Source: Desulfofarcimen acetoxidans DSM 771
GTDB taxonomy: Bacteria; Bacillota; Desulfotomaculia; Desulfotomaculales; Desulfofarciminaceae
NCBI RefSeq assembly: GCF_000024205.1
Contig: NC_013216.1
Location: 4,278,001 to 4,342,000 of the forward strand
Direction: 5' to 3'
DNA length: 64,000 nucleotides
Shown: positions 47,354 to 58,408 of the stretch, one piece after another
How positions within the stretch are numbered: the first letter of the stretch is position 1
How the letters are laid out: each line of letters begins with the position of its first letter
The notes under the pieces: model-generated
The model's database searches: none
The model's input: only the letters and a program-made list of their open reading frames with translations
Told to the model about the DNA's origin: nothing
Made by a program: the position numbers and the translations under genes

Positions 47354-48454
47354 TTAGCTTCCGGAGCTATAAGCCCAGGGCTTTTTAAAGGCCATAACCT
47401 GGATTTCATGCTGACAGCTGATATTTAACAAGCTCTGTTTAGCCTGAGCCAAACCCAATTCAGCTTCCAATAATTCCGTATTGGTAGCCATACCTACCTC
47501 AAATTTCACTTTCGCCACCCGCTGTGATTCTTCCGCCAGCCGGAGTGATTCCTGAGATCCGGCATACTGCTCTTCCAACTGCTTAGCGGAATAATACAAT
47601 GTGCGCACCAGTTTACTTACACTGTCTTTAGTATCAGTTGCAGCTACCTCGGCTTTCTCCACATCTATTTGCTTGACTTTGTAGGGTTCGGAATTAGAAT
47701 CAGTAAAGTCATATAATTGTTTAGTCAACTTAGCTAAATCAATTTTTCTTTGAGCAGACCAGACCGTTGGGCTGACATCAAGAGCTTTAGCTACTTCATA
47801 ATCCAAATTGGCAACCTCCAGAGGAGTTATCTCAGGAATGGTTACAAGTACCGGACGGTCATCGGGCCAGAGTCCCACCAGTTGGTTAAATTTCTGGTAA
47901 TCATCATCCAATGCTTTTTTTGCCGCTTCCAGCGAGGATTTTGCCGACTCATAGTTGGTTGTTGCCTGAACAACGGCCATAATATCCACTGTACCTACCT
48001 TTTGACCAACCAGAGCCATGCGCTTGAGCCAATCCTTTTGTTTAAGAGTAAGCTCGGCTACCTTAACTTTTTCCTGCGCCTGCAAAATAGTGTCATAAGC
48101 ATTGTAAACAGACATTACCACGCTGTCTTGTTGAACCATAAGGTTTTTCTTAGCCATGCTGGCGTTGATTCCCGCCTGAACATCACTTATAACTAAACTT
48201 TCCGCTTTAGAATTGGGTGCCGGACCGGTGGCGTTATATTCGACTTTGTCCGATACATAATCGCGCACTTCTTCGCTGCGGTCGGCATCATACTGAGAAC
48301 TTTTCAGACCTTTATTCAGAAACATTGCTTTTTCCACAGCCTGCTGCATTGTAAATTCAGGCGTGGCAGGTTCTCTTTCCGCGGCCTGGACAGGGATTAT
48401 CGCCATCATTAGGGTCAGTAAAACCAGAACCGGTATCAAGGTGAATCTACGCAT
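47354..48454 (-). CDS. TolC-like (outer membrane efflux protein family) protein
   Basis: A 366-residue secreted protein with signal peptide (cleavage after VQA, about residue 24) and long alpha-helical hairpins with the family pattern VMSVYNAYDTILQAQEKVKVAELTLKQ, VGTVDIMAVVQATTNYESAK and its repeat VGMATNTELLEAELGLAQAKQ. TolC proteins form trimeric outer-membrane channels, but this one is shorter than the usual 420-470 residues and I see little room for the beta-barrel strands. In a host with SLH/CsaB wall and endospores, an outer membrane is unlikely, so it may be a wall-spanning helical tube or adaptor partner. A strong promoter with palindrome precedes it. Confidence 0.8.
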   Translation of the reverse strand: MRRFTLIPVLVLLTLMMAIIPVQAAEREPATPEFTMQQAVEKAMFLNKGLKSSQYDADRSEEVRDYVSDKVEYNATGPAPNSKAESLVISDVQAGINASMAKKNLMVQQDSVVMSVYNAYDTILQAQEKVKVAELTLKQKDWLKRMALVGQKVGTVDIMAVVQATTNYESAKSSLEAAKKALDDDYQKFNQLVGLWPDDRPVLVTIPEITPLEVANLDYEVAKALDVSPTVWSAQRKIDLAKLTKQLYDFTDSNSEPYKVKQIDVEKAEVAATDTKDSVSKLVRTLYYSAKQLEEQYAGSQESLRLAEESQRVAKVKFEVGMATNTELLEAELGLAQAKQSLLNISCQHEIQVMAFKKPWAYSSGS

Positions 48455-49663: not shown

Positions 49664-49761
49664 TTCTATCCCTCCATAAAATTACACATTCTTTGGCAAG
49701 ATGTAATATTACGATTAATTGTATAATTCAAACATATAAGGTAATATATTAAATAGTTAAT

Positions 49762-49791
49762 AAAAACCGGGCTCATGTGAGCCCGGTTTTT
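49762..49791. terminator. Strong terminator after the 781-residue protein gene
   Basis: AAAAACCGGGCTCA and TGAGCCCGGTTTTT form a perfect 14-bp stem, with T-runs on both strands; it lies 20 nt beyond the stop codon. Confidence 0.92.
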
Positions 49792-49810
49792 ATATTTTTT
49801 CAACAGCTAA

Positions 49811-52156
49811 TTACAGAGTTTTTACGGTTACAGTTTGGGTAGCTGCATCCCACTCTACGCTAGCGCCAAGAGCTTGAGCAACCCAACGCAACGGCAGCAT
49901 GGTGCGGCCCGGGTCTACGATTTCAGGAGCAGTGTCCATAGTGAACGCTACACCGTTTACAAGCATGGTGGTGCTTCCGATGGTCAGTTTAACCACGCGG
50001 TCACCCTTGATGATTACAACACTCTGGTCAACAGCATTGTACATAATGTTAGCATCGTCTACACCCAGAGCATTAGCTACAAAACGAACAGGCAGGAAGG
50101 TGCGGTCGTCTTTCAGGTAAGGAGCAACGTCCATAGTCTTCTCTACACCATTCATTGTGAAGGTGGTCTGGCCGATTACAAAGGCTGCATCTGCTTTATA
50201 ATTGCTATCGCCAGGAGTTACGCACTTGGCATTAACGGTCTTAGCAGCAGTGGTGGTTTTCGGGAAGATTTGCTTGTCGGATGAATCAACATCGAAAGCA
50301 TGGATTGAGTCAACATATACAGCACCACCGGTGATGGTACCATAGTAATCTTCAACTTCAGACTTATCGTTAACTTCTGCTACTGCATCACCCTTAATCT
50401 TGAAGACTACGTCTCCTTCAGGAACAGTGCGGTCAACGATTAACCTAATACCGGTAACTTCTATCTTACTTGCTGTGCTGCTGTCGCTATCAATGGTGAT
50501 AGATACTTGGTTGTCATCTTCTTCGCCGTCTTTCTGAGTCTTCACGCTGCCAGAGGCGATTTTCAGGTCACCTTCAACAACTTCTACGTCAGGAGTGCTT
50601 GCGAAACGAACACCCTGCGGCAGATCAAGAATTAAATAGTTGTTATCTTTGATTGCACCAGCTTCATTTTCAGTGATGGTTACATCACCGGCATCTGCCA
50701 CAGCACCGATTTTCACTTCCGGAGCAGCAGAAGCTTCAACTGTTATAGGAGCAACAATCTTAGCTACGGTCAGTTCGCCTGTCAAACCGGCGGTACCGGC
50801 CACAGTTACTGTCAGGTCACCGGTGTAGCCCGGCTCAAGAACAACTTCCATATCTTCCAGTGTCAATTCTGCAGCATCGCTGGAAGGTCCGTTAAACTTA
50901 AACTTGGCGGTTTTGCCGTCAGTACCGGGGAAAGATTCGGGTTTAACGTCTAAACTGCTGTCGTTGTCAGAGTCTAATTTACCCCATTTAGCATTGTCAG
51001 GCAGTTCCAAGGTCAGGGTACGACCGTCAGAAATACTTTTTGCAACTGATTCTTTAATCACGATATCACCGATTTTTTGTTCGAGCATACCGGCAATAAC
51101 GGTAGGAGCTTCAGTGCATTCAATGCTGGTTTCATAGTCGCCATATTTTCCAACTACCAGTTCGGAAGGTGTAACATCGGTATCGCCATTAATCTTCATA
51201 GTAACGTCACCGGTTTTGGCGTCAGTCTCATCATCTACGCTAATATCAATGGTAATTTCTACGCTGGTTGCCTTGGTGGTAGCATAACCCTTCGGCAGGT
51301 TGATTACAAACTCATCATCATTAATACCTTCATAATTTGCAAGTATTTCGGTTTTAAGACCAGCATCACCCCAAATAGTTTCGACTGTAGGGGTACCGGA
51401 CCATACAAAACCGTTAGGAAGCTTAAATTTCAAGGAATCATTTCCATCTTCTAAAGAACCTTCGCGGTCTTCAGTAATACGCAGCTTGATTTCATCGCTA
51501 TCGCTGAAGGAATCAGTACTGCTGACACTAACAGTTACAGCACCGTCACTAACAGTACCAACGGCTACGCTGCCATCTGAGAAACCGGAACCTGGCGGAG
51601 AATCAATTATTACAGGGATTTCACCGGTATGTCCGCTGGCTACAAATGCGGTTTTTACATAGAGATAAATCCAGCAATCTTGACCGGAAACAGGTGTACC
51701 AACAACTTCCATTTTTACTTCTTTGTCGCTTACAGGGGATAATTTAAGCATTTGAGTTCCGTCATACAAACCGTTGTTGTCGCCGGAATAAACTGCAGGT
51801 ACTTCAATATAGTTTGCAGTACCATATTTATCGGAACTTGCTGTGTGGTTAAATGCCCATGTTGCTTGATAAGCTGCCTTAGCAGTTGTCTCGTTAGATC
51901 CTACTCCCGCTGTGGTCCAGATAAAATCGGACGGCAAACGGAAAGTAACTGAGTCACCATTTTCTAACTGACCTGCAGTGAAGTGCATAAATACTGTACC
52001 TAATTCTCTTACAGCGTTATCATCCACAGTGGGAGCTTTTAAGGATGAATAATCATCTGCTGCTGCCGCCGGAGAAGCTAAAGGCATCAACATGGTTACC
52101 ATCATAGCCAATGTCAGCAGAACAGACATAAATTTTCTACTTTTCTTGTTCCTCAC
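49811..52156 (-). CDS. Large secreted modular surface protein with copper-amine-oxidase-N-type domain
   Basis: A 781-residue secreted, Asp/Thr/Val-rich protein. Signal peptide ends around PAAAA (residue 33). Residues 35-200 are the unnamed domain shared with the next gene (YSGDNNGLYDG, GTPVSGQDCWIYLY). Three repeats of about 120-130 residues follow, each starting with a pattern like IxITExxxGxxxDGxxLxLxLPxG. The end (665-781) has two copper-amine-oxidase-N motifs (DRTFLPVRFVANALG, GRTMLPLRWVAQALGASVEWD). GTG 52156 has AGGAGGG 6 nt upstream. Strong terminator, strong ribosome site and long leader suggest an abundant surface protein, maybe S-layer-like; that is inference. An ECF-type promoter lies upstream. 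Confidence 0.87.
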   Translation of the reverse strand: MRNKKSRKFMSVLLTLAMMVTMLMPLASPAAAADDYSSLKAPTVDDNAVRELGTVFMHFTAGQLENGDSVTFRLPSDFIWTTAGVGSNETTAKAAYQATWAFNHTASSDKYGTANYIEVPAVYSGDNNGLYDGTQMLKLSPVSDKEVKMEVVGTPVSGQDCWIYLYVKTAFVASGHTGEIPVIIDSPPGSGFSDGSVAVGTVSDGAVTVSVSSTDSFSDSDEIKLRITEDREGSLEDGNDSLKFKLPNGFVWSGTPTVETIWGDAGLKTEILANYEGINDDEFVINLPKGYATTKATSVEITIDISVDDETDAKTGDVTMKINGDTDVTPSELVVGKYGDYETSIECTEAPTVIAGMLEQKIGDIVIKESVAKSISDGRTLTLELPDNAKWGKLDSDNDSSLDVKPESFPGTDGKTAKFKFNGPSSDAAELTLEDMEVVLEPGYTGDLTVTVAGTAGLTGELTVAKIVAPITVEASAAPEVKIGAVADAGDVTITENEAGAIKDNNYLILDLPQGVRFASTPDVEVVEGDLKIASGSVKTQKDGEEDDNQVSITIDSDSSTASKIEVTGIRLIVDRTVPEGDVVFKIKGDAVAEVNDKSEVEDYYGTITGGAVYVDSIHAFDVDSSDKQIFPKTTTAAKTVNAKCVTPGDSNYKADAAFVIGQTTFTMNGVEKTMDVAPYLKDDRTFLPVRFVANALGVDDANIMYNAVDQSVVIIKGDRVVKLTIGSTTMLVNGVAFTMDTAPEIVDPGRTMLPLRWVAQALGASVEWDAATQTVTVKTL

Positions 52157-52420
52157 TTATTTCCCTCCTAAATAGATTTAATAATTTTGCTTAGGGGCTT
52201 TCTTAGGCACCGGTCACTTTACCCCATTAATACAACCGGCTTTAATACTCGCATCACCTCCTAATAAACTTTACTCTACAGCAATCGTGTCAGATGAACA
52301 GCCACTTTTGCCGTTTCTTTAATAACTAGCCCATACGGTGGTGCAATCGGGCCAAATAACATATTCTACATCGGCATTCAAATTCCTGCCGTGTAAAATA
52401 TTCGCCCTTTTTTGCTACCT
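52157..52420 (-). promoter_or_regulatory. Long 5' leader of the 781-residue protein mRNA
   Basis: If transcription starts about 7 nt past the ECF -10 box at 52427, the mRNA has a leader of roughly 260 nt. It contains AGGAGGTG directly touching an 11-codon ORF (52221-52256) and a second Shine-Dalgarno AGGAGGG before the real start. No known riboswitch was recognised. Confidence 0.4.
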
Positions 52421-52426
52421 GATTAG

Positions 52427-52455
52427 TTAGACAGCCCTAACTCTTTAAAAGTTCC
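52427..52455 (-). promoter_or_regulatory. ECF-type promoter for the 781-residue surface protein
   Basis: GGAACTT (52449-52455) and GTCTAA (52427-52432) are 16 nt apart on the minus strand. The promoter in front of the ECF sigma gene has the same two boxes and the same spacing on the plus strand. Confidence 0.7.
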
Positions 52456-52817
52456 GTCAATCTTAAAATTTTTTTCGTTTTAATAATTTTCTGTCTGAAA
52501 ACATTGCATTTGACACGATAGCTCTATACATTTATAATTGCGTGGAGGCTTTTTATCTACATATAGATTGCATGCTTTATGCAAAAGTTCTTCTAACAAA
52601 TAAACAGTCTTACAGACATATGGCAGATTGCTTGATTCGTACAAGTTTTAGCCGCACACAACTAACCAAGATAGATATATTGCTAATAGTATACAACTAA
52701 CTATAACCCGAATATGTGCTATAATAGAAGCTACATAATTATAATATGCCAATCAATTATTTAACACAAAACCTTCCTTAATTTTTCAAACATTTTTTTG
52801 CAGAGCCTCCCTTGGCT

Positions 52818-52846
52818 GGAACTTTAGCCGGCCTACCTGTGTCTAA
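52818..52846 (+). promoter_or_regulatory. ECF-type autoregulatory promoter of the sigma gene
   Basis: GGAACTT (52818-52824), 16 nt, GTCTAA (52841-52846). This is the classic extracytoplasmic-function promoter form, 45 nt before the start codon of an ECF sigma factor, as expected for autoregulation. AGGAG lies 9 nt before the GTG start. Confidence 0.8.
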
Positions 52847-52890
52847 TTAGGTAAAACGGGGAGTTTCTGCTTTGTTAGGAGTGGCTTTCC

Positions 52891-53502
52891 GTGACCGATA
52901 CCAGGATTCTGGTAAAAAAAGCTCAAAGAAACGATTTGGCTGCTTTTGAAGAACTGGTGCACATTTACCAGAACAAGGTTTTTGCTCTGTGCGTCAATCT
53001 GGCCGGAAATCGTGATGATGCCCAGGATTTAGCTCAGGAAGCCTTTATCAGGGCCTACAAAGCTCTGGCGAGCTTTCGCAGCGAAGCTAATTTTGGAACA
53101 TGGCTGCACCGCATTGCCGTCAATGTTTGGCTGAATCACAAGCGCAAAAAAAGCTCTCATCAGCTTTTGTCTCTGGATGAACACTACCAGAGTGAGGACG
53201 GTGATTCTCTAAAGCGCGAGGTAGCTGCGGGGGACGGAGATCCGTTGCAGCTGCTGGAGGAAAAAGAGTTCAGCAGTATGGTTTACAGTGCGTTGAGAAC
53301 ATTGTCGGAGGAACACCGGGCTGTCCTGGTACTGCGCGAAATTGAAGGCTACAGTTATGAGGAAGTGGCACAAATGTTGGGTTGCAGTCTTGGTACTGTT
53401 AAGTCAAGACTCAGTCGGGCCCGTGAAGCAATGAGGCGGAGTTTAAAGAATATGGCGAGTGACACCGTAGTAAAAACAACTGCAAGTGCAGGGAGAAGGT
53501 GA
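52891..53502 (+). CDS. ECF-family RNA polymerase sigma factor
   Basis: Alternative sigma factor of 203 residues, SigW/SigE-like. Region 2 (VFALCVNLAGNRDDAQDLAQEAFIRAYKAL, FGTWLHRIAVN) and region 4 (LRTLSEEHRAVLVLREIEGYSYEEVAQMLGCSLGTVKSRL) are complete. GTG 52891 has AGGAG 9 nt upstream. The anti-sigma gene follows 6 nt after the stop codon, so both are co-expressed. Own promoter plus two matching promoters in the neighbourhood point to a cell-envelope regulon. Confidence 0.95.
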   Translation: MTDTRILVKKAQRNDLAAFEELVHIYQNKVFALCVNLAGNRDDAQDLAQEAFIRAYKALASFRSEANFGTWLHRIAVNVWLNHKRKKSSHQLLSLDEHYQSEDGDSLKREVAAGDGDPLQLLEEKEFSSMVYSALRTLSEEHRAVLVLREIEGYSYEEVAQMLGCSLGTVKSRLSRAREAMRRSLKNMASDTVVKTTASAGRR

Positions 53503-53508
53503 TGATTT

Positions 53509-54609
53509 ATGGACTGCCAAAAAACAATGAATTTATTATCACTCTACGTAGACGGCAGTCTCGACAATAAACCAGACGACCGTGCTATAAAAGATCACCT
53601 GTCGGCTTGCAAAGCCTGCAGCAGCGAGTTTGCTTTGCAAAAAAGGCTTTCCACCGCTATGAATAGTTTTAAGAGTGAGGATATAACAGCACCGCCTGAT
53701 TTATGCGCCAATATCATGGGGCAACTAAAACAGGAGCGCAAAAAAGTTTTCCACCTGCTTCCTGCCGCCTGGCGCAGAACAATTGCCGCGGTTGCCGCAA
53801 TACTGCTTATGGCAGGCATGTCCTCAGGGATTACAAGCAGCTTGCTGCCGGTAGCCAACAATGATAAGCCGAATGCGGCGCGGCCCTCACAAGTTGCCTC
53901 AACTGATAACGGCGCTGCGGCAGAAGTTAAACCTGAGACGCATGATCCAAACCGGTCCAAAGATGCCGAGCAACAGCCGGACAGTAACGCAAATGAATCA
54001 AAAGTTGATGTTTCATCTAAAGAAACCACGTCAGGCAACGATGTCAAAAAGAACGGCACGGCTATGACAAACACGGAAAGCAACACCGGAGAGGTTCCGT
54101 CAGGCACAACCAAGAAGCCTACAGAAGTTGGTCAAAGTTCCCCTTCTGTTAAAGCAACACCTTCATATGCAGAGAAAACCGCATTTCTCAGTAAAAATAT
54201 GGTGATAACCAGTACCGTCTTAAAAATCTCGGTAAATGACTTGTCCGAAGCCAAGATAAAAGCAGTAGCCTTGGCCGCCGGCGCAGGAGCCTCAAACCAG
54301 CTGTTTCCCGAGGAAGGCGGCTTGCTCATGAGATTGGCTACTCCGGCTGAGCAGGCACAACAGCTCATCAACGGGCTGTCCGGATTAGGCACGACGATGG
54401 ACAGACAAGATGAAAACAGGGACATAACTTCTTCTTACAACAAAGCTTCTGTACAATATGCCGAACTGCAAGCCAGAATAAGTGCATCGACTGATACAGA
54501 AGAGCGCAGGCAATTAGAAAACCAGGCGGCAGGTTTTAAGAGGACTATGGATTCATATGAAGCTGATGCCGGTAAGAGGGTAATAGTTTTATGGATAGAA
54601 AAAAAATAG
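53509..54609 (+). CDS. Zinc-finger (ZAS) transmembrane anti-sigma factor
   Basis: A 366-residue membrane protein that should hold the ECF sigma factor inactive. The N-terminal ZAS domain has Cys3 and the H-x3-C-x2-C motif (His30, Cys34, Cys37), followed by a single membrane helix (about 94-115, AAVAAILLMAGMSSG). The extracytoplasmic part starts with a long Ser/Thr/Asn/Lys-rich linker (to about 220) and ends in a folded domain (NMVITSTVLKISVNDLSEAKIKAV ... SSYNKASVQYAELQARI) that could be the sensor. ATG 53509 follows the sigma stop by 6 nt. A perfect hairpin terminator ends the operon. Confidence 0.9.
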   Translation: MDCQKTMNLLSLYVDGSLDNKPDDRAIKDHLSACKACSSEFALQKRLSTAMNSFKSEDITAPPDLCANIMGQLKQERKKVFHLLPAAWRRTIAAVAAILLMAGMSSGITSSLLPVANNDKPNAARPSQVASTDNGAAAEVKPETHDPNRSKDAEQQPDSNANESKVDVSSKETTSGNDVKKNGTAMTNTESNTGEVPSGTTKKPTEVGQSSPSVKATPSYAEKTAFLSKNMVITSTVLKISVNDLSEAKIKAVALAAGAGASNQLFPEEGGLLMRLATPAEQAQQLINGLSGLGTTMDRQDENRDITSSYNKASVQYAELQARISASTDTEERRQLENQAAGFKRTMDSYEADAGKRVIVLWIEKK

Positions 54610-54612
54610 AAT

Positions 54613-54660
54613 ATAAAATAACTAATACCCCGGCATCTGCCGGGGTATTAGTTATTTTAT
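54613..54660. terminator. Long perfect bidirectional terminator
   Basis: Arms of about 23 bp (ATAAAATAACTAATACCCCGG and its complement) around a TC/GCATCTGC apex. It ends the sigma/anti-sigma operon on plus and the subtilisin gene on minus, whose stop codon is inside it. Confidence 0.93.
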
Positions 54661-57600
54661 ATATAATTCAATCACACGCTCCAAAAGAGTTTCAAATTTT
54701 CTTGCGGTAACCGTCTCGTCCGGTGCAAAGCTGCCGTCGGCATGTCCGTGAAAAATGCCTGAGGCTGTAGTCAAGTCAACAGCAGAAGCAGACCAATGCG
54801 GTATTTCACCAATGTCCGAATAAACCCCGGCAGAAGCAGGCTGGCTTTTAATATTCAAATCCTTTATTAATGCCGCTAAAATCACTGCGGCCTCAGCGCG
54901 ATTCAGAATACCGTCGGGGTGAAAGCTGCCGTCCGCATAGCCTTTAAAGATACCGCGGGCACTGGCTTCGGCAATAGCTGTCCGGTAAGGCAGCGATAAA
55001 TGATTTATATCGGAAAAAGAAAGCCTCCTACTGCTTATATCAGACCAGTTAAACACCTGTGACATTGCAACTGTGGCTTCGCTCCTGGTCAAGGGCCAAT
55101 CAAACAAGGTACCGCTCATCAATGTCGTCTTTTTTTCAGTTGTTGCCCAAGACATTGCATTTATAGGATTGTTATTAAGATTAGCCAGGGTTAAGTGACT
55201 GCCGTTAATTCCCCCGGTTTTTTCGTTTAAAACCACCAGGTTAATAGTTTGGTCCTCTTTTTCCCTTATTGGCATGCTAAAAGTAAACCTTCCCGAGTCG
55301 TCCACAACCGGTGTCCGGATTAAACCATCTTTATTTCTTATATAAAGTTTAGTGTCAGGATCGGTTTTGCCTGACAATTTTAATTTGTTGTCCGCAAATA
55401 AACCGGCGGTTGTCAATAAAGGAGCCGGCACCTTATTTTGAGCGCTTACGGAAAGCAAAACATTGCCGAGCTGCGGAACCGCGGCATATTCCAATTCAAT
55501 CTTCTCACCGGTCAGCAAATCATTCGGCGTAACCTGATACCCGTTTTTGGAGAACCTGGTCGAATCGGAAATCAGATACTTACCGGATTCTTTCATGGTA
55601 ATAATATTGTCTGTCTTATTATAGCCTGCCAGTGTTCCCTGCTCAAAAGCAGTATCCGCTATATCCAAGCGCCACACTTCATTTTGCAGCGGGTCCACAG
55701 TGATCCTGATTCTGAGCCCGACATCAATTGACTCAGCAGAGCCTCTCACACCCCAACGATATATAATTGACTGGGGAGAAAGATCAAACGAAAGATAGGA
55801 ACCACTGTCATCCTGTAAATAGAGCTTGCCGCTTTTTTTGCTGCAGTCAATAACCTTTCCATAAAACACCTTGCTATAGGCTACTAATCCAATAGCTTCT
55901 CCTGTGTCAGGCAAAATTACGGCTGATATGTGGTCGCCTTGTTTCAAACTCCTTACATCAGAACTTTCCTTATCTTTATTTACCGGAGCACCCGGAAAAA
56001 GCCGCAAAAGAGAACCGTTTTCCATTTTAATTTCACCAGCAGCGGTGATTCCGCGCACAGTCCCAAGAATTACCTGCCTCTGCACGGCCAGGTATTGCAC
56101 CTGTCTGGTGGAGGGTGCAAGCCTGAAGGTAACCGGCATACCGGGCAACACGTCCTCCAATTCATCCAGCGCCCCGGTACCAAAGGGCATATCAGCCAGC
56201 TCAGATTTTCCGTAATCATCTTCATAGGAATAAACGGCGCCGGGCATAACCTGATAGGAAGTCTTATCGCCGGCAAGAGATATCTTCTTTAAGCCGTTTT
56301 CATCCTGCACTTCCAAGATTACACCTTTACGCTCGCTGTTGGCAGCACGCGCCCATCTGATTTTTTGGTCAAGCGGGTTGACTACGGCATTGATTTCAAC
56401 TCCCGTGGGAAATTTATCGGGAGAAGACGGACTGTCATTTAACAAAAGGTCCGCTCCGTCCGGAGCTAAATAGAAGCCTCCCAACCTGTTATCAGGATTG
56501 ATTTCCGAAAAAACCGTTCCTTCAGCAGTGTTAAGCACCTTCACAGCATTGGCCCGCCAGACTCGAGATACTAAATAAACCTGCTTTTCAGTCATAAGGA
56601 CTTCCGCTCCGGTAAACAGGTGCGCGTCATCCGCCGCAATAATACCGTCATCTATCAGATTAATAAGCGGTTTTTGGGGCATGCTCAGTGTTTTACCGTC
56701 TTTTTTAATAACAGGTTTGCCGGCAGTCTTTTGCAGCACTCCCTCAACAGGCGCCTGCCCGTAAACAAGCGCATAGTCCTGCGCCGGTTTACTGCTGTTA
56801 TACCCTGTATTCTTAAGCACGGCCGCACCGACCACATGAACTGTATACTCACCCGGCTCGGGTGAGGGCAGAAATACCTGCTCAACATTATTTAACCGGT
56901 CCGGGGTATTGGCACCCAGAAAATGATTGCCATAAAAGACTTTTCCGTCCGGTGTCTTAACAATTAAATCAAGATCGTTAACCAGTGTGCTCCCGCTGCC
57001 CGCGGTGTCAGGCGGATCAGTCCAGTCCAGAGTTACCTTTACAGGCGCCGAAGGATCAGCGACATGGAAGGTATATGTCTTTTCTTCCTCCTGCGCCACT
57101 CCGGCAATTTCATCGGTAAATTGAAAAGCACCGTCCTTTAGGGCAATTGTGCTTGCGGACAAATCAAGCACGCCAAAGCCTTCTTTGGAAGGCCCGCCTT
57201 CAGCAGTTCTGGCCCCGTTAATCAAAATCGCCTTCAGCAGCGCCGCCGACGGATCTGGTATAATCAGATATTTCTTCATATATTCGCGCAGCAGAGCTGC
57301 CGACCCCCCGGCAACCGCCGATGCCATGCTTGTCCCCTGCATGCTCGTGTATTCGGGAAACCCGGTCAAGTTTCCTTCTATCAAACTGGAACGGGCAGAG
57401 ATCACGGCTGAACCGGGAGCCAGCAGTTCGGGCTTGATTCTCCCGTCGCCTGTGGGACCGCGTGAGGAAAACACGGCCTGGGAGGAAGTATCGCCTGCGC
57501 CGGGCACCAGAGCCGGCCGGGGCAAAACGGAGGCCCCTACGGCCAGAGCATTTTTACTGTTGGCCTCAGCAGTAATCGTCCTGTCCGAAGGCCCGCTGTT

Positions 57601-58272
57601 GCCTGCACCAAAGATAACCAGAAAATCCGGATGGCTGCGCACAAAATCATCCACCTGAGAGGATGATTCCCGGTAAACATCCGATCCGCCGCCCCACCCG
57701 TCCACATGAATTCTGGCTCCCGCCTGGTAGGCGGGCCGGAACAGATCCGCCAGATTCTCCGGCGGCTGCGATTCACCATACTTATTTAAAATAGCCTGAA
57801 AGTACAAGCTGGCGCCAGGGGCGATGCCGCGAAATTTGCCTCCGGAAGCGGCACCTGTACCGGCCAACGTAGCAGCCATGTGAGTACCGTGACCAATCGG
57901 GTCATCCGGCACGTCACGGCCTGCCCAGGACTTGAGCATTACCACTTTAGGCATTTTGCCGGGTGTGCTTTTTAAATCGGGGTGAATGTCCTCCAGAGAA
58001 CCTTTATCCAGCCCGCTGTCGGCAATGGCAACTATTTGCCCTTCCCCGCTTAGACCGCCGGGAACTAAAAATCCCGGAGTGTTTACTGCCGTTGCTCCGG
58101 CAATATCCCTGGCCCGGTCATTTAAAAACGAAATCTGCTCCTCTGCTGTACACCGGAAAGGATTTAAAACTATTCCCTGACAAAAAAACAGTGTTAAACC
58201 GGCCAGCAGAACAGAAAACTTTATGTATTGATTCAATAACATCCCCCCAAACATATCCAGAAACATTGACAC
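54652..58272 (-). CDS. SLH-anchored subtilisin-like (S8) serine protease
   Basis: A 1206-residue surface protease. After the signal peptide the S8 domain (about 70-370) has the whole triad: Asp85 (AIADSGLD), His128 (GHGTHMAATLAG), Ser315 (GTSMASAVAGG), and oxyanion Asn225 (GAGNSGPS). A beta-sandwich domain follows (VKVTLDWTDPP), then several repeated small beta modules, and C-terminal SLH motifs (ARGIFKGYADGSFHPDGILNRAE, SGIFHGHADGSFAPDETVTARK). It would be held on pyruvylated wall polymer and process surface proteins. The start is unsure: several ATG and a TTG lie near a GGGGGG run at 58246-58251. An ECF-type promoter lies 108 nt upstream. Confidence 0.9.
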   Translation of the reverse strand: MSMFLDMFGGMLLNQYIKFSVLLAGLTLFFCQGIVLNPFRCTAEEQISFLNDRARDIAGATAVNTPGFLVPGGLSGEGQIVAIADSGLDKGSLEDIHPDLKSTPGKMPKVVMLKSWAGRDVPDDPIGHGTHMAATLAGTGAASGGKFRGIAPGASLYFQAILNKYGESQPPENLADLFRPAYQAGARIHVDGWGGGSDVYRESSSQVDDFVRSHPDFLVIFGAGNSGPSDRTITAEANSKNALAVGASVLPRPALVPGAGDTSSQAVFSSRGPTGDGRIKPELLAPGSAVISARSSLIEGNLTGFPEYTSMQGTSMASAVAGGSAALLREYMKKYLIIPDPSAALLKAILINGARTAEGGPSKEGFGVLDLSASTIALKDGAFQFTDEIAGVAQEEEKTYTFHVADPSAPVKVTLDWTDPPDTAGSGSTLVNDLDLIVKTPDGKVFYGNHFLGANTPDRLNNVEQVFLPSPEPGEYTVHVVGAAVLKNTGYNSSKPAQDYALVYGQAPVEGVLQKTAGKPVIKKDGKTLSMPQKPLINLIDDGIIAADDAHLFTGAEVLMTEKQVYLVSRVWRANAVKVLNTAEGTVFSEINPDNRLGGFYLAPDGADLLLNDSPSSPDKFPTGVEINAVVNPLDQKIRWARAANSERKGVILEVQDENGLKKISLAGDKTSYQVMPGAVYSYEDDYGKSELADMPFGTGALDELEDVLPGMPVTFRLAPSTRQVQYLAVQRQVILGTVRGITAAGEIKMENGSLLRLFPGAPVNKDKESSDVRSLKQGDHISAVILPDTGEAIGLVAYSKVFYGKVIDCSKKSGKLYLQDDSGSYLSFDLSPQSIIYRWGVRGSAESIDVGLRIRITVDPLQNEVWRLDIADTAFEQGTLAGYNKTDNIITMKESGKYLISDSTRFSKNGYQVTPNDLLTGEKIELEYAAVPQLGNVLLSVSAQNKVPAPLLTTAGLFADNKLKLSGKTDPDTKLYIRNKDGLIRTPVVDDSGRFTFSMPIREKEDQTINLVVLNEKTGGINGSHLTLANLNNNPINAMSWATTEKKTTLMSGTLFDWPLTRSEATVAMSQVFNWSDISSRRLSFSDINHLSLPYRTAIAEASARGIFKGYADGSFHPDGILNRAEAAVILAALIKDLNIKSQPASAGVYSDIGEIPHWSASAVDLTTASGIFHGHADGSFAPDETVTARKFETLLERVIELYIK

Positions 58273-58379
58273 TGCTTAACTTATTAATTCTACAACTTTA
58301 ATTAATTTCCCTTTTAATTATCCTATTTGATTATTAAGAGGGTTAACTGTTTTTTAAGCGATTTTCTTGCCTAGAATAA

Positions 58380-58408
58380 TAGACGACATAGAAGCCCGGA
58401 ATGTTTCA
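58380..58408 (-). promoter_or_regulatory. ECF-type promoter for the SLH subtilisin
   Basis: On the minus strand TGAAAC (58403-58408) and CGTCTA (58380-58385) are 17 nt apart. Counted from AAC to GTCTA the distance is 18 nt, exactly as at the sigma gene and the 781-residue protein gene. The -35 box deviates (GAAAC instead of GGAAC). Confidence 0.5.

Follow-up and report, generated by a model that had tools for sequence, protein, structure and literature searches.

The window analysed here, a 64,000-nucleotide stretch of Desulfofarcimen (formerly Desulfotomaculum) acetoxidans DSM 771 (single-contig genome, 4,545,624 bases; window at 4278001-4342000), carries adjacent genes for an extracytoplasmic function (ECF) sigma factor and a zinc-finger anti-sigma factor, divergent from the gene for a 781-residue surface protein. 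We consider it very probable that these three genes form a very small, positively autoregulated ECF regulon, and that the promoter of a neighbouring protease gene is separate from it. The gene order is TolC-like protein, 366-amino-acid (aa) and 781-aa surface proteins (minus strand), ECF sigma factor and anti-sigma factor (plus strand), and SLH-anchored subtilisin-like protease, Mbl and SpoIIID (minus strand). The basis throughout is computational sequence comparison, and the promoters are known as conserved sequence rather than as measured transcription. An ECF factor with an anti-sigma partner is an already known type of system; this one has an unusually small and sharply delimited regulon.

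The motif GGAACTT-N16-GTCTAA, hereafter class A, has two exact copies in the window, one before the sigma gene (52818-52846, plus strand) and one before the surface-protein gene (52427-52455, minus strand), with 0 expected from dinucleotide shuffles of the window. The rest of the genome (4.55 Mb) holds no further perfect copy. An earlier note on this DNA had described identical boxes at the same spacing before these two genes, and they were found exactly there. On a class A weight matrix of 27 bits, built from 43 sites of relatives with the window's genome left out, the sigma and surface-protein sites score 28.7 and 30.3 bits, and the rest of the window stays at or below 12.4 bits, the control level. 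The looser pattern AAC-N18-GTCTA occurs seven times in the window against 1.3 expected; besides the sites before the sigma, surface-protein and protease genes, four copies fall in long open frames, and the pattern alone is weak evidence for a promoter. The genome scan proposed in the earlier note, for GGAAC-N18-GTCTA, gave 6 copies against 3 in the control; beyond the two window sites, it yielded a single other intergenic copy. A scan allowing up to two mismatches to class A gave 31 matches against 74 in the control, so no additional targets can be claimed in this genome.

The footprint extends across the order. Counting the window's copy together with those of relatives, 34 sigma loci were compared; in 32 of them a promoter of the GGAACTTT-N14-TGTCTAA type (regular expression GGAACTT...GTCWAA) lies upstream of sigma, and its distance to the sigma start is nearly always 67-92 nt. 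The AAC and GT boxes of an ECF factor's own promoter are found at 32/34 loci and, in drifted form, in two relatives: G007, one of the two exceptions (the other is L038), keeps the GGAACTTTT box with the -10 altered to CATCTAA, and G001, the sole same-family relative, which was looked at separately, has GGAACTTTT with GCGACTATA. The divergent promoter ahead of the surface-protein gene is also kept in relatives. A search of 60 relatives for the perfect motif, with the reversed pattern as control, returned 95 distinct sequences for the motif and about 21 matches for the control. Of 94 classified sites in 61 genomes, 72 belong to the two gene types, with 29 before sigma and 43 before an orthologue of the 781-residue protein (within 3.2 kb); one is embedded in a sibling sigma gene and 21 lie elsewhere. 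Some surface-protein genes are preceded by a tandem pair of class A sites, and many orthologues that lie far from sigma or on other contigs still have the promoter approximately 160-480 nt upstream. That the promoter accompanies the gene to distant loci argues strongly that the regulon is real, and since the remaining 21 perfect sites are at the control level, the regulon apparently comprises just two units. Hence, the comparison strongly supports, as predictions, both the autoregulation of the sigma factor and the control of the surface protein proposed in the earlier note.

Some observations weigh against a regulon of this form. The -10 box has drifted in the same-family relative G001, and a Pelotomaculum copy (L038) has no class A match upstream of sigma. 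The 21 other perfect sites could hold additional real targets, though their count equals the control level. In relative G052 the surface-protein/TolC-like gene pair keeps a class A promoter (L154, 10340-10368, minus strand), but no class A sigma was found next to it and the genome yielded only a sibling-type sigma at the threshold used, so another sigma factor may read class A in that genome.

The surface-protein gene may also have a second promoter. From ECF promoter to start codon its leader measures 270 nt in the window (median 273 nt); approximately 35-45 nt past the ECF -10 it contains a sigma-H-like site, GCAGGAATT-N11-GTAGAAT, that agrees with the sigma-H promoter consensus RNAGGAWWW-N11/12-RNNGAAT. 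Such a match lies downstream of the ECF promoter in 20/43 leaders against 0.4% expected, and a sigH gene is present in the genome (spore_sigH, 381.3 bits against a cut-off of 294.8 bits). The gene could accordingly be mainly under a sigma-H or housekeeping promoter with a minor ECF input, an arrangement we regard as possible but rather doubtful, given that no part of the leader is better conserved than the ECF boxes, which persist even in leaders without a recognisable sigma-H-like box. A Shine-Dalgarno-like element is found in 36/43 leaders against 12.7 after shuffling; most relatives have it as AAGGGGGGATG, the window as AGGAGGTGATG. By analogy it is a possible mRNA stabiliser, like the STAB-SD of Bacillus thuringiensis cry3A, a Shine-Dalgarno-like sequence in a long leader distant from the start codon (PMC4113751); however, the cry3A element lies near the 5' end, the window element lies approximately 100 nt from the start and its function is putative. 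A STAB-SD proper would bind 30S and block 5' decay. The window element could possibly belong instead to a short upstream reading frame. Structure prediction gave no conserved RNA fold for the leader, and all Rfam matches to it fell under their gathering scores.

The earlier note had also assigned the SLH subtilisin to the same regulon, on the basis of a third, slightly divergent copy of the boxes, so that one sigma factor would read all three promoters and the sigma factor, surface protein and protease would form a single switch. The copy is present (core TGAAAC-N17-CGTCTA, 58380-58408, minus strand), the AAC-to-GTCTA distance is equal at all three sites and the protease gene keeps its place next to the sigma/anti-sigma pair in most relatives. 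The site is moreover a real, conserved ECF-type promoter, as judged from its retention in relatives and not from its likeness to the class A pair: AAC-N17-CGTC occurs in 11/23 subtilisin upstream regions (the window's included) against 0.26 expected from shuffles, in at most 2/23 at other spacings and in 0 on the opposite strand, and in three further relatives there is a variant or a site farther away, just downstream of mbl. However, its class differs. It scores 3.6-3.7 bits on the class A matrix, compared with 28-30 bits for the two class A sites and 16-18 bits for itself on other classes. It does not show the GGAACTTT and TGTCTAA boxes of class A, having C before GTC, a position at which class A has T in 41/43 and G in 2/43 sites and never C, whereas C is found in 35/35 class B and 8/8 subtilisin sites. 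It also lacks the TTT that almost always follows GGAAC in class A, and perfect class A sites before the protease were not seen in relatives. A single switch for all three genes is therefore improbable; the proposal is supported for the sigma factor and the surface protein and is not supported for the protease.

In many species the protease is instead probably controlled by an ECF factor through a promoter class other than A, and the third site is probably read by an ECF factor other than the window's. Across relatives, GGAAC-N17-CGTCTATA gave 37 sites among the matches listed against 10 in the control, at scattered loci. In the window's own genome GRAAC-N17-CGTCWA gave 9 matches against 14 in the control, so the regulon of this class cannot be listed there. 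Relatives' subtilisin upstream regions also contain sigma-H-type AGGAAA...TGTCGAA sites, to which the window's match is degenerate.

A candidate reader of the third site is the genome's other close ECF factor, a sibling at 3.81 Mb (3811457-3811984) whose promoter class shares CGTC. In the sibling and its orthologues, GGAAC-N17-CGTC lies in the last sigma codons or across the stop codon in 35/37 cases with invariant spacing, and none of the 37 has this motif upstream of the sibling sigma gene. All 35 embedded sites are followed by a zinc-finger (zf-HC2) anti-sigma gene. A coding explanation was rejected, given that the frame differs in 3/35 and that the distance to the stop codon varies while the spacing between the boxes never does; the differing frame and floating position indicate that conservation acts at the DNA level. 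Because the promoter is embedded before the anti-sigma gene and none lies upstream, the sibling sigma is predicted to drive its anti-sigma factor and not itself, a predicted wiring that implies anti-sigma-only feedback. We tentatively suggest, while thinking it somewhat unlikely in full, that the Desulfotomaculales have paired sibling ECF switches of opposite wiring. The window switch would activate its own synthesis and serve one surface protein only, and its anti-sigma ectodomain may sense the assembly state of that protein; the sibling would drive only its anti-sigma factor, in pure negative feedback, and may read the protease-type promoter. A literature search found, in the library covered, no direct precedent for an ECF factor controlling a surface-layer gene in Clostridia, and likewise none for anti-sigma-only feedback.

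The idea that the boxes are shared by chance, or mark some other conserved element in the DNA such as the site of a different regulator, has next to nothing to recommend it beyond the frequency of the loose AAC-N18-GTCTA pattern in the window, given two strict boxes with a free spacer, fixed spacing and orientation towards the gene, the confinement of the sites, in many families of the order, to genes of two types, and a -35 identical to the GGAACTT box of Escherichia coli RpoE (PMC8103513).

The sigma protein has only regions 2 and 4, with Pfam r2 and r4_2/r4 above cut-off, as in group IV (ECF) factors, and scores 113.6 bits on TIGR02937 against a cut-off of 42.9 bits. It falls below the cut-offs of the RpoE (TIGR02939, 159.6 against 236.15 bits) and SigW (TIGR02948, 143.2 against 243.1 bits) families. 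The adjacent zinc-finger anti-sigma factor is its putative cognate partner; among 18 orthologues of the latter, zf-HC2 is found in all 18, and 17 match DUF4349. In a structural model of the anti-sigma factor, a helical domain at the N terminus and an alpha/beta domain at the C terminus (226-366) are both predicted with confidence, joined by a disordered linker (92-225); the C-terminal domain would lie outside the cell. Foldseek found no match to the model at E<=0.001 and returned only ferredoxin-like folds of weak E.

The 781-residue protein is predicted to be a chain of beta domains, with immunoglobulin (Ig)-like adhesin domains as the nearest fold (PrgB, 8beg, E 2.6e-18, with a TM of only 0.2). 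Sequence search found no solved relative, and Cu_amine_oxidN1 was the sole domain found, with neither an SLH domain nor a known S-layer family; its signal peptide and domains point to a location at the surface. The genome contains a second full-length homologue (561407-563197), for which the genome scans showed no class A site. The strong hairpin 3' of the surface-protein gene means that the gene may be transcribed alone. A TolC-family gene, in a species with a Gram-positive wall, adjoins the surface-protein gene in many relatives. The sigma-A-type site between the divergent ECF promoters is a possible basal promoter of the sigma gene.

Two further loci are of related interest. Pelotomaculum sp. 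PtaB.Bin104 has three contigs (L037-L039), each with a sigma orthologue and a divergent surface-protein promoter, which suggests either that the assembly mixes strains or that the switch has multiplied. In the window's own genome, near-matches to the ECF boxes at G000:C1:2726177 and 2727622 (L110, L111) precede another sigma-like gene and a nearby lipoprotein gene, possibly a further autoregulated ECF locus.

Table 1 Features of the window and of the sibling locus, in window positions unless a contig or locus is named.
Feature	Position	Strand	Details
TolC/outer-membrane-efflux family protein	47354-48454	-	relative's counterpart L154:6806-7885
Strong terminator-like hairpin	49760..49793		between surface-protein gene and 366-aa paralogue
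781-residue secreted surface protein	49811..52156	-	beta-rich Ig-like domains, C-terminal Cu_amine_oxidN1
Shine-Dalgarno-like element	52252..52262	-	AGGAGGTGATG; ~100 nt ahead of true start
Sigma-H-like second promoter in surface-protein leader	52363..52389	-	GCAGGAATT-N11-GTAGAAT
Class A ECF promoter, surface-protein gene	52427..52455	-	GGAACTTTTAAAGAGTTAGGGCTGTCTAA
Sigma-A-type promoter	52510..52538	+	12/12 consensus match TTGACA-N17-TATAAT; between divergent ECF promoters, aimed at sigma gene ~350 nt off
Class A ECF promoter, sigma/anti-sigma operon	52818..52846	+	GGAACTTTAGCCGGCCTACCTGTGTCTAA; kept upstream of sigma orthologues
ECF sigma factor gene	52891..53502	+	203 aa, regions 2 and 4; Pfam Sigma70_r2, r4_2; matches in 55/60 relatives
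Anti-sigma gene	53509..54609	+	zf-HC2, hydrophobic helix ~88-108, disordered linker, DUF4349-like C-terminal domain
SLH-anchored subtilisin-like protease gene	54652..58272	-	adjoins sigma/anti-sigma genes in most relatives
Degenerate sigma-H-like site before subtilisin	58287..58314	-	AAAGGGAAA-N12-GTAGAAT; relatives match better
Third site, ECF-type promoter of other class, before SLH subtilisin	58378..58408	-	TGAAAC-N17-CGTCTATT
Embedded promoter of sibling ECF	G000:C1:3811414-3811442	-	locus L156:5415-5443; orthologues L168-L200

Bacillus SigW/RsiW is an ECF factor with a zinc-finger anti-sigma factor. The window system shares this type of partner, and the third site resembles the TGAAAC -35 of SigW promoters (PMC8103513); the window sigma lies below the SigW cut-off, however, and SigW promoters do not have the class A boxes. 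With E. coli sigma-E (RpoE)/RseA the window system has in common the GGAACTT -35, positive autoregulation and an anti-sigma partner. Within rpoE, ahead of rseA, E. coli carries a further sigma-E promoter (rseA P3), beside an autoregulated upstream one (PMC8595263), and this internal promoter resembles the embedded promoter of the sibling ECF, although the sibling has no upstream promoter of its class. The window sigma differs from sigma-E in falling below the RpoE cut-off, in its zf-HC2/DUF4349-type anti-sigma factor and in a regulon of about two promoters, compared with a large stress regulon. Excerpts of a surface proteome of Desulfotomaculum reducens report a TolC-family protein (Dred_3141) and PF07833 proteins (PMC4137172), and contain no regulatory analysis. 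In comparison, the surface-protein orthologue of relative G052 has a class A promoter and lies beside a TolC-like gene, and we infer that the latter is Dred_3141.

From what is known of these protein families, the membrane-anchored zinc-finger anti-sigma factor, with its DUF4349-like domain outside, would hold the sigma factor in the resting state, and the outside domain would sense some cell-surface signal and free it. As the conserved promoters suggest, free sigma would then transcribe its own operon from 52818 (plus strand) via GGAACTTT-N14-TGTCTAA and the divergent surface-protein gene from 52427 (minus strand) via the same promoter class. The sigma-H-like promoter may add surface-protein synthesis at the transition to stationary phase, besides the ECF signal. 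The subtilisin would be transcribed from the separate ECF class, GAAAC/GGAAC-N17-CGTCTAT, most likely by another ECF factor such as the 3.81 Mb sibling.

To our knowledge, ECF regulons in anaerobes are difficult to predict where genetics is lacking. The strength of the present footprint allows a promoter, a regulon and the limits of that regulon to be predicted across an order. Two promoters are offered for a candidate major surface protein, and two ECF promoter classes are told apart, mainly by one -10 base. The wiring of the sibling system suggests feedback through the anti-sigma factor only.

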